In this document: piece after piece, positions 46,442 through 49,875 of the stretch
Layout: every line of letters begins with the position of its first letter
How positions within the stretch are numbered: the first letter of the stretch is position 1
NCBI RefSeq assembly: GCF_000018945.1
Contig: NC_011978.1
Coordinates: forward strand, 1,706,729-1,770,728
Direction: 5' to 3'
DNA: 64,000 nt
Source: Thermotoga neapolitana DSM 4359
GTDB lineage: Bacteria; Thermotogota; Thermotogae; Thermotogales; Thermotogaceae
Position numbers and translations under genes: made by a program
Notes under the pieces: generated by a model
Databases searched by the model: none
Told to the model about the DNA's origin: nothing
The model's input: only the letters and a program-made list of their open reading frames with translations

Positions 46442-46452
46442 TTTTTTCTTTT

Positions 46453-46556
46453 CCCTTCCCCATTCCCTCCGCCGGTATTACCCGGATCAGGTTCTAGGGG
46501 TCGAGGACTTCCGTCCTCCTCTCAGCCCCGGAATAGGAGCTCCCCCTGGGGAAGGG
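46453..46556 (-). ncRNA. TPP riboswitch (THI element)
   Basis: Minus strand, upstream of thi4. P1 is CCCTTCCCC / GGGGAAGGG (46548-46556 with 46453-46461). The conserved THI core is visible: GGGGCTGAGAGG, then GACCCCTAGAACCTGATC and GGGTAATACCGGCGGAGGGA. It senses thiamine pyrophosphate and represses the thi operon through the downstream terminator. Confidence 0.97.
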
Positions 46557-46656: not shown

Positions 46657-47001
46657 ATGGCAGATCAGTACCATGAACCGGTTTCTGAACTCACAGGAAA
46701 GGACAGAGATTTCGTCAGGGCCCTCAACAGTCTGAAGGAAGAGATAGAAGCGGTTGCCTGGTATCACCAGAGAGTCGCAACCACCCAGGATGAAACCGTA
46801 AGGAAGATCCTGGAGCACAACAGAAACGAGGAGATGGAACACGCTGCGATGCTTCTTGAGTGGTTGAGAAGGAACATGCCGGGCTGGGACGAAGCCCTCA
46901 GAACATATCTGTTCACAGACAGGCCGATCACAGAGATAGAAGAGGAAGAGACCTCCGGTGATTCCTCTGCAGGTGGAGACCTCGGTATAAGGAAGATCTG
47001 A
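46657..47001 (+). CDS. Encapsulated ferritin-like protein (encapsulin cargo)
   Basis: A 114-residue EncFtn-type ferroxidase. Two helices carry the metal ligands: [12 protein letters not shown] and [19 protein letters not shown] (Glu, Glu and His). An acidic, flexible linker is followed by the cargo-loading peptide GGDLGIRKI at the extreme C-terminus, which docks on the encapsulin inner wall. It oxidises Fe2+ so that the shell can store iron. The start is an ATG with GGAGGTGAG upstream; a TAAAAT -10 lies at 46603-46608. Encapsulin follows 14 bases later. Confidence 0.93.
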
Positions 47002-47015
47002 AAGGGGTGAAAAAC

Positions 47016-47813
47016 ATGGAATTTCTGAAAAGATCGTTTGCTCCTTTGACAGAGAAACAGTGGCAGGAGATAGACAACAGGGCAAGGGAGATATTCAAAA
47101 CACAACTTTATGGAAGAAGGTTCGTAGACGTGGTAGGCCCCTACGGCTGGGAATACGCCGCCCATCCACTCGGAGAAGTCGAGGTGCTCTCGGATGAGAA
47201 TGAAACTGTGAAATGGGGATTGAGAAAATCCCTTCCTTTGATCGAACTGAGAGCGACGTTCACACTTGGACTGTGGGAACTCGACAACCTCGAAAGGGGA
47301 AAAGAAAACGTGGATCTTTCCAGTCTTGAAGAGACCGTGAGAAAAGTGGCTGAATTCGAGGATGAAGTGATATTCGAAGGGTGCGAAAAATCTGGTGTGA
47401 AGGGCCTTCTTTCCTTCAATGAAGAGCGAAAGATCCAGTGTGGAAACTCTCCAGGAGATCTTCTCGAGTCTCTGATGAGGGCTCTTTCGACGTTCTCAAA
47501 AGAGGGTATAGATGGTCCCTACACCCTCGTCATAAACACGGACAGATGGATCAACCTCCTGAAAGAAGGGACCGGGCATTATCCCCTCGAAAAAAGAGTG
47601 ACGGAACTTCTTGGAGGTAGAGTCATCACCACACCCAGAATTGAAGACGCTCTTGTTGTGTCCGAGCGAGGAGGAGACTTCAAACTGATCCTTGGACAGG
47701 ATCTGTCGATAGGCTACGAAGACAGGGAAAAAGACAGTGTGAGGCTCTTTGTGACGGAGACGTTCACCTTCTATGTCGTTAACCCAGAAGCGATGGTGTA
47801 TCTGGCATTCTGA
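47016..47813 (+). CDS. Encapsulin shell protein (family 1)
   Basis: A 265-residue HK97-fold shell subunit ([20 protein letters not shown]). It assembles into an icosahedral protein nanocompartment. The Thermotoga shell binds flavin near Trp87 and Arg79; both positions are conserved here ([14 protein letters not shown]). The start is ATG 47016 with GGGGTGAAA upstream; a GTG nine bases earlier overlaps the ribosome binding site. It is co-transcribed with its ferritin-like cargo and forms an iron-storage compartment. Confidence 0.96.
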
Positions 47814-47834
47814 ACTGAAAGATCGGTGGGGAAA

Positions 47835-49155
47835 ATGCCGGACGTTTTGCTGGTGTATCCCCCCATGAAAAAGGTGGGGATAGCGGATCATCTGGGACTA
47901 CCTTATATCGCTGCCTACCTGAGAGAGAAAGGAATGAGTGTCCAGATTGTGGACACGAAACTCGAGGGCTGGTCTCCAAGACGGGCCGTCGAAGAGATCT
48001 CAAAAATACCAGCAAAGGTGATAGGAGTAACTCTTCCCTTTCAGATTTACGCTGTGGAGGTGTTGAACTTCATCTCAGCTCTGAGAAAAAAAAACCGATG
48101 CGCACATATCTGTGGGTGGCATTTTCCCCACCTTTGCTTATCGTGAGATACTGGAAAAGTACCACTGCATCGATTCTGTGGTTCTCGGTGAAGGAGAGAT
48201 CACTTTCTACGAACTGGTGAAAGCCATCTTTGGAGATAAAGACTGGAGGAGGATCCATGGCGTTGCCTACAGAGAGGAAGGAGAAATAAAAACCACTCCC
48301 TCGCGCTCTCTCGTGAAAGATCTGAACAGTCTGCCCTTTCCTGTACGGGACAACCTCCCAAGGATATACGAAAAGACGGGAGCAGCGTCGGTGATAACTT
48401 CCCGTGGGTGTTACGCTTCGTGCTCTTTTTGCAGCGTTGTTCCGTTCTACGAAAAGTTCGGGCCGAAGATTCGTCTGAGAGATCCAGAAAACGTGGTGGA
48501 TGAACTGGAAGTGCTGGTGAAGGAGTACAAAATCGAAAACGTCATCTTCTGCGATGCGAACTTTACGATCTCTAAAGAGAGAGCAGCAAAGATAGCAACC
48601 GAAATAATCAGAAGAAAGCTGAAACTGAGGTACGCAATAGAAAGCAGAGTTACAGAGGTAGATGAAAGGTTGTTCAGGCTGTTGAAAGAAAGTGGTCTGA
48701 GAAGAGTCTTCCTCGGGCTGGAGTCGGGATCTCAATCCATGCTGGACAGGTTCAGAAAAGGAGTCACAGTTGAACAGAATCTGAAAGCTCTGGAGATTCT
48801 CTCTAAACTCGATCTTTACGTTTCTCCGGGTTTCATTATGTTCGACGATCGCACAAGTCTTGAAGAACTGCAGGAGAATGCAAAGTTTCTGAAAATTGTT
48901 CGCCGGATCATGAGAGATAAGATCCGCCCGATCGATATCACCACAAAACTTCTGCCCCTTTCTGGTACAGAGTTCGAAAGATACCTTAAGGAAAGAGGAA
49001 AATATCGTGGAGACGTGTTTCGTTTCAACTACAAAATCGAAGATCCATCGGTACGTTTCATCTACTACTTTCTGAAAGTCTCTGGAACCATCGTTTCATC
49101 CCTGAAAAAACTCTTTCCCCGAAAAGATTGGGACAGAAAGTGGCTGGAGAGCTAG
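47835..49155 (+). pseudogene. B12-binding radical SAM protein, frame broken at an A9 tract
   Basis: Frame one (to about 48094) encodes a B12-binding-like Rossmann domain (LLVYPPMKKVGIADHLGLPYIAAYLREKG). Frame two (from 48094 to 49155) continues it (DAHISVGGIFPTFAYREIL) and contains the radical SAM motif SRGCYASCSFCSVV and a SAM-binding region. The switch falls exactly in nine A residues (48086-48094): eight would give one 440-residue protein. It may be a frameshift mutation, a sequencing artefact, or a site of transcriptional slippage. It follows the encapsulin gene by 21 bases. Confidence 0.8.
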
Positions 49156-49661
49156 ATTACCACGATGCTTCCTCTCGTCCATATTCCCGTCACCTTTCCA
49201 ACGTTTCCCACCACTCCAAGTACCTGATCGTTCTTCTTCACTGTCTTCAGAAAGCCTGGAAAGTCTTCTGGCCATTTCACCGTTTCGTCGAATTTTTTGA
49301 TCAAGTCTTCTGCCGTCTCTTCGGTTCTTGCCATCACAACGCATCCTCTGCCATCTTCAAAATCTTCGAAGATGAGGAAGGCAGGTGTCAGGAACGGATC
49401 TATCCTGATCGTCAGATCCCTCGAGTAACGAAGTGTGAGAGGTCTGGCCAGTTTCAAAAACACCTTTCCGTCTCTTTCCAGGATGAATTCGTCCAGAGCG
49501 TTCATCAGGTCTTTTCCGATTTCCTGAACGCTCTTTGCGGAGAAATCAATATCTGGTAGTTTTCCCGTGTGTTTCCTTCCGATCATCAGGGAGCATCCTC
49601 CAAGATCGTACCTTCTGAATCGTGACGTTCCCAGGATGGGTCCTCCGATCTGAACTCTCAT
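49152..49661 (-). CDS. Conserved-looking hypothetical protein behind a structured leader
   Basis: A 169-residue soluble protein I cannot assign. It is rich in beta-prone segments, starts MRVQIGGPILGTSRFRRYDL, and ends with VVGNVGKVTGIWTRGSIVVI. No cysteine cluster, signal peptide or membrane segment is seen. A strong ribosome binding site (GGAGGTGAAAG) precedes its ATG. Upstream lies its own promoter and a terminator/antiterminator leader, so expression is conditional. Its stop and that of the convergent radical SAM gene share the palindrome CTAG. Confidence 0.75.
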   Translation of the reverse strand: MRVQIGGPILGTSRFRRYDLGGCSLMIGRKHTGKLPDIDFSAKSVQEIGKDLMNALDEFILERDGKVFLKLARPLTLRYSRDLTIRIDPFLTPAFLIFEDFEDGRGCVVMARTEETAEDLIKKFDETVKWPEDFPGFLKTVKKNDQVLGVVGNVGKVTGIWTRGSIVVI

Positions 49662-49680
49662 TCTTTCACCTCCTTCTGAA

Positions 49681-49780
49681 AAACAAAAGGGGCCGACCTT
49701 TCGGCCGGCCCCTCGATTTTCTGCTCAGCGGTCACGCAAAAACCCCCGGTCCGCTGAGGGGCCGGCTCTTCGATGTAGTG
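49681..49780 (-). ncRNA. Attenuator-like structured leader (unassigned cis-regulatory RNA)
   Basis: On the minus strand an intrinsic terminator (GGGGCCGGCC, GAAA loop, GGTCGGCCCC, then TTTTGTTTTT; 49681-49712) precedes the 169-residue gene. Its 5' arm is also part of an 11-base segment (49704-49714) perfectly complementary to an upstream segment (49756-49766), a competing antiterminator. Between them CTCAGCGG / CCGCTGAG (49751-49758 with 49724-49731) makes a third stem sharing three bases with the antiterminator. This three-way competition resembles a riboswitch or protein-sensing attenuator. I do not recognise the class. Confidence 0.7.
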
Positions 49781-49786
49781 CACATT

Positions 49787-49814
49787 ATCATATCGCTGAG
49801 AATTCCCTGTTCAA
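49787..49814 (-). promoter_or_regulatory. Promoter of the structured leader
   Basis: TTGAAC (49809-49814), 16-base spacer and TATGAT (49787-49792) on the minus strand. Transcription would start near 49780, just before the first arm of the leader structure. Confidence 0.6.
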
Positions 49815-49875
49815 AAAGTACGAAACTGCACACGCTCTCACCTCATGAGAAAACCATACCACTCTGTTGTTAAAA

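Follow-up and report, generated by a model that had tools for sequence, protein, structure and literature searches.

The DNA ahead of the gene for an uncharacterised 169-residue protein of Thermotoga neapolitana DSM 4359 very probably specifies a methionine-responsive, ribosome-mediated transcription attenuator. It lies in the window, by which is meant the whole stretch of 64,000 nucleotides that was analysed, taken from the 1.88 Mb genome of this Thermotoga. Ribosome stalling, the direction of control, the response to methionine and the function of the protein are what we infer from its features, which are given here in the order in which they would be transcribed.

49853-49861, minus strand: extended −10 promoter element TGGTATGGT (TGGTATnnT type), predicted; TGGTATNNT is invariant in all eight leaders
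49836-49844, minus strand: ribosome binding site (RBS) of the leader open reading frame (ORF), GAGGTGAGA, from sequence; conserved in the seven genus members
49732-49833, minus strand: leader ORF of 33 codons, (V/M)CSFVLFEQGILSDMIMCTTSKSRPLSGPGVFA*; frame conserved in eight of eight genomes
49783-49791, minus strand: regulatory Met-Ile-Met codons ATG ATA ATG, invariant in eight of eight leaders
49756-49766, minus strand: antiterminator 5' arm (A), with a perfect 11-bp pairing to 49704-49714
49724-49758, minus strand: inner hairpin of 8 bp (49758-49751 with 49731-49724), the leader stop codon being in the loop region
49704-49714, minus strand: shared segment (C), at once the antiterminator 3' arm and the terminator 5' arm
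49687-49714, minus strand: intrinsic terminator hairpin of 12 pairs with a GAAA loop, then a T run to about 49679; from a consensus scan
49665-49676, minus strand: RBS of the 169-residue gene, AGAAGGAGGTGA, from sequence; GGAGGTG is conserved in eight of eight
49152-49661, minus strand: the 169-residue gene, whose product appears to be a truncated, diverged relative of COG2122/UPF0280 (DUF375, ApbE-like)

Orthologs of the 169-residue protein occur in eight of the 61 Thermotogota genomes searched, that is in every one of the seven genus members and in one metagenome-assembled genome (MAG) of another genus, and the same leader precedes the gene in all eight. Across these genomes the leader ORF runs to about 32-37 codons and, apart from small variations, has the core E.GILS[DN]MIM[CR]. 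Between the window leader and its nearest relative seven changes are synonymous and two nonsynonymous, whereas chance would make 19% of them synonymous (P 2e-4); changes are few in the other close pairs, and one more distant pair, L003/L006, is without bias. A short ORF with its own RBS and start, and with signs of coding constraint, is thus located upstream of the terminator, as is expected of an attenuator. The invariant TGGTATNNT sits about 30 nt upstream of the ORF, and TATAAT is found at the equivalent place in leaders of other lineages. From the position of the extended −10 element the transcription start is predicted at about 49846-49848, so that the 5' UTR would have 13-15 nt. This agrees with T. 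maritima, where one of the main classes of 5' UTR, the short one, measures 11-17 nt (PMC3636130).

This arrangement differs from that in a preliminary description of the locus, which placed the promoter at TTGAAC-N16-TATGAT. The score of that site (9/12) is near the level of shuffled sequence (four hits in the region against 1.8 expected), relatives do not keep its −35 TTGAAC, and the site falls within the conserved coding frame, where the apparent −10 box, TATGATAATG, reads as Asp-Met-Ile-Met; there may be an additional promoter here, which would remove the start of the leader ORF. A leader peptide had been offered as an alternative reading, and a leader peptide is indeed supported, although in a different frame (49833-49732) that starts upstream of the promoter then proposed; the 41-codon frame from GTG 49783 that was named at the time ends elsewhere or enters the gene in six of the eight leaders.

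Methionine codons are clustered just upstream of arm A, which in the window begins 25 nt from the start of the first regulatory ATG, and the corresponding clusters elsewhere read MMMM or MMM. Against this, the window leader has only two methionine codons, with an isoleucine codon in between. In MIM leaders this isoleucine codon (49788-49786 in the window, and its equivalents) is always ATA, to which a bias of the search contributes; ATA is read by a CAU-anticodon tRNA, as are methionine codons.

The antiterminator and the terminator share segment C and so are mutually exclusive, as in known attenuators. Both were in the preliminary description, the terminator as a 10-bp stem with the same GAAA loop and T run, and both stand: the terminator, now with 12 pairs, is kept in all eight leaders of the orthologs, and the 11-bp perfectly matched antiterminator is present and above chance in the same eight (at most 1/1000 shuffles in each). 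Within the leader ORF segment of the window a helix as good as A:C arises in one of 1000 dinucleotide shuffles. The competing 8-bp hairpin also described at the time is found in the window, but several relatives have mismatches in it, and so comparison of the leaders across the eight genomes upholds an inner hairpin by position and not base by base. The single-strand folding energy of the whole leader is ordinary for its composition (z −1.5), and for that reason folding energy alone is no evidence here. Folding predicts that the window leader is antiterminated already when it is not translated.

For the 169-residue protein a Pfam search gave no match, nor did a sequence search of solved structures. 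The NCBIfam models for COG2122/UPF0280 (NF003323) match five of the eight orthologs weakly, below the cut-off; hhalign against ten Thermotogota COG2122 proteins gives a probability of 97.9 and an E value of 3e-13 over 124 columns. An AlphaFold model (pLDDT 76, built on a two-sequence alignment) has as its best PDB match 2O34, a DUF375 protein (DVU1097; E 1e-5), with ApbE proteins next. The C-terminal two thirds of the protein thus align with COG2122/UPF0280 and the predicted fold agrees with 2O34; unlike that family it has a shortened N-terminal part and, in the hhalign alignment, is without the conserved CTSSGTVGHS segment. Homocysteine synthesis involving COG2122 is known from other anaerobes. 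There COG2122 acts with DUF39 (HcyBio) and NIL/ferredoxin (PMC5764234). Thermotogota genomes with HcyBio mostly have a full COG2122, and no HcyBio/DUF39 partner is found in the eight genomes that carry the 169-residue gene. Since the CTSSGTVGHS segment, part of the N-terminus and HcyBio are missing, the protein is on sequence and model a relative of COG2122 rather than a proven member, with a role likely to be linked to methionine. The homocysteine route of the genus Thermotoga is metY-metA, and no leader or riboswitch was seen before this, its main methionine operon.

Convergent to the 169-residue gene in the window (46657-49155) are genes for an EncFtn-like protein, an encapsulin and a radical SAM protein, an order kept in the MAG (L009), and the 169-residue and radical SAM genes overlap by four bases at their 3' ends. 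The radical SAM/B12-binding gene beside the encapsulin gene changes frame at nine successive A residues (region 48080-48110) and is thereby split into 47826-48146 and 48112-49155, its L009 homolog being one intact frame of 448 amino acids. A TPP riboswitch (Rfam, 79.8 bits) is located at 46446-46556 on the minus strand, ahead of thi4-like and thiC genes.

Further evidence comes from methionine-codon leaders elsewhere in the phylum. A sequence model of the window leader finds weak matches there, with ATGATAATG[CT]GC followed by a terminator in common. The motif ATGATAATGYGCA has 19 matches in 61 genomes against two for its reversed control, and 21 in 103 Thermotogota genomes. Thirteen of these are leaders complete with promoter, RBS, ORF and terminator, and all precede either methionine operons, the gene identities of which were confirmed by Pfam, or the 169-residue gene: eight this gene, four (in genus g6) metH-activation genes and one metQ-metN-metI. 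Three of the g6 operons were read, and contain metH-activation, metH, aspartokinase, HcyBio with a ferredoxin domain and COG2122 genes; a leader before metH-activation genes was confined to g6 and absent from the other upstream regions inspected. A further leader (MMIM), in G027, is found ahead of an aspartokinase-HcyBio-COG2122-metF-metH-activation operon. The other eight matches (L031, L036-L039, L048, L127, L128) are inside genes or without a terminator and were taken as chance. Genes downstream of the related leaders hence belong to methionine synthesis or uptake, the window's gene joining them by COG2122 homology only.

An association of methionine codons with such loci is also apparent without use of the motif. 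At 27 metQ and 30 HcyBio loci we scanned for a terminator preceded by a short ORF with its stop close by, and an ORF passed if it contained Met-x(0,1)-Met. Upstream of the genes 23 of 39 short ORFs passed, in 23 loci (MMMM, MMM, MMIM, MNMIM, MCM, MVM, MIM), compared with 0 of 26 in control sequence from the opposite strand, downstream of genes and other loci (Fisher P 1.8e-7); some of the 23 loci are close relatives, and so represent fewer independent events. Together with the f1 and f2 leaders, those that passed span families f1, f2, f3, f5, f6, f9 and f11 and are alike in architecture. Genome G047 has two such leaders, before HcyBio (L079) and metQNI (L030/L131), both with MIM and both ending ..SPGV*. 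Before four f9 metQ genes (L132, L134, L136, L142) a SAM riboswitch is found instead of a methionine-codon leader, and because related genomes have the leader ORFs, sensing systems appear to have been exchanged within one family. A HEARO RNA (Rfam, 140 bits) lies at L136:3301-3525, near an f9 metQ gene. In the same genome as the window, a histidine leader (L123 about 890-1080; G000:C1 about 1487451-1487636) has ..HHHH..GPAVSPPGV in its ORF and the layout leader ORF, terminator/antiterminator, then his genes (hisG by Pfam), as also does L126 (G004); it is a natural positive control for the architecture of the methionine leader.

These comparisons also bear on what the ribosome might sense. TnaC is a nascent-peptide sensor of tryptophan, and the leader peptide itself, rather than the level of Met-tRNA, could by analogy stall the ribosome on sensing a small molecule such as methionine or SAM. 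Conservation of the Thermotogaceae peptide beyond its methionine codons (E.GILS[DN]MIM[CR]) and the invariant ATA would suit such an arrest, but other lineages keep only the methionine cluster (MMMM, MMM, MCM) in peptides that are otherwise different, and a histidine-codon leader of the same layout exists, which together make nascent-peptide arrest improbable.

Less probable still is a metabolite-binding riboswitch with 49766-49724 as its aptamer, although the terminator/antiterminator architecture would be the same and parts such as GGACCGGG are strongly conserved as nucleotides even where the L008 frame shifts. The preliminary description had left the choice between riboswitch and attenuator and recognised no known aptamer core. 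An Rfam 15 search of the leader at gathering and permissive thresholds bears out the latter, matching no family and giving only chance-level BjrC68 and Moco hits below the gathering score. Of the two readings it is the attenuator that gains support: no aptamer-like conserved core is seen outside the coding frame, the loop region varies in size and sequence across lineages whereas the methionine-codon ORFs are kept, and conservation upstream of the arm tracks the reading frame, the conserved element there being a short ORF with methionine codons. That the leader is just the terminator of the upstream GH130 gene with chance complementarity, the 169-residue gene being read by leak-through, would fit its place between two co-directional genes but is very improbable given that A:C is above chance in eight of eight leaders, that the leader ORF is conserved, as is the promoter element, and that L008 and L009 have the same leader although their upstream gene is not GH130.

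How a methionine attenuator could operate here can be outlined as follows. Transcription would begin at the extended −10 element, around 49853-49861, and the 33-codon leader ORF would be entered by a ribosome. With plentiful Met-tRNA it would pass ATG ATA ATG and move over arm A, or come to rest at the stop codon, which lies between A and C; with A blocked from C the C:D terminator would form ahead of the 169-residue gene. With scarce Met-tRNA the ribosome would stall at ATG ATA ATG with about 7 nt still to go to A, so that A could pair with C around the inner hairpin, preventing the terminator and allowing transcription of the gene. While it waits at the second ATG the ribosome would occupy about 18 nt, and A would be left free. 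At the stop codon it would be within the 41-nt A-C loop, where a steric block of A:C is expected from the size of the ribosome; the folding calculation only masks bases. Masking at the stop leaves A free, and so a ribosome parked there was considered as an antiterminating state, but this was set aside, since such a ribosome would be inside the 41-nt loop and the genes downstream serve biosynthesis or uptake.

In leaders whose methionine run is correctly located, arm A follows the first regulatory codon by 13-27 nt, C pairs by default with A, fully or partly, and the inner hairpin between A and C carries the leader stop codon. As the default fold is antiterminated, regulation would depend on the ribosome blocking A:C. 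Counting against this scheme, a ribosome stalled at the second methionine codon of the f2 and f6 leaders would reach over the edge of A and so destabilise it; the lack of base-by-base conservation in the inner hairpin and the absence of such a leader before metY-metA also count against it. Through this switch a relative of a homocysteine-synthesis protein would come under the control of methionine supply, which gives a first functional lead, in methionine/homocysteine metabolism, for this Thermotoga gene. In Thermotogota the DUF39 homocysteine pathway is probably methionine-regulated. More tentatively, methionine leader-peptide attenuation may be an old control found throughout the phylum and in places swapped for SAM riboswitches, its surviving Thermotoga target being a stripped-down COG2122 relative that has a methionine-linked job without a DUF39 partner.

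Descriptions of leader-peptide attenuation concern few amino acids and come chiefly from Proteobacteria, Actinobacteria and certain Firmicutes; the usual control of methionine genes is by SAM riboswitches, T-boxes or repressors. An attenuator for methionine across Thermotogota would broaden the mechanism in specificity as well as in range, and would point to ribosome-polymerase coupling as a means of control in a hyperthermophile. The leader-peptide attenuators listed in PMC3766115 are His, Leu, Thr and Trp (Rfam) with Ile/Val and Phe only; cysteine candidates are reported in Actinobacteria (PMC1262725) and a candidate cysteine leader peptide before cysS in Alphaproteobacteria (PMC8632094). 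No methionine leader peptide was found in the searchable literature, the scope of which excludes the 2010 survey by Lopatovskaya et al., and so priority is not certain; the initiator-tRNA effect suggested for the Streptococcus fthC uORF (PMC11109978) is a different idea. With the SAM (S-box) riboswitch and methionine T-box leaders the window leader would share control of methionine genes, often by transcription termination, but there RNA binds the ligand or tRNA, whereas here translation would be the sensor and no Rfam family matches. With the trp, his, leu, thr, ilv and pheA leaders it shares a short translated ORF containing codons of the regulated amino acid, a mutually exclusive antiterminator and terminator, and a place ahead of genes from the pathway of that amino acid. 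It differs from these in its methionine specificity, in its occurrence in Thermotogota and in its antiterminator, the arms of which pair at long range around an inner hairpin that holds the leader stop codon; in contrast to the trp leader it is predicted to read through when not translated.
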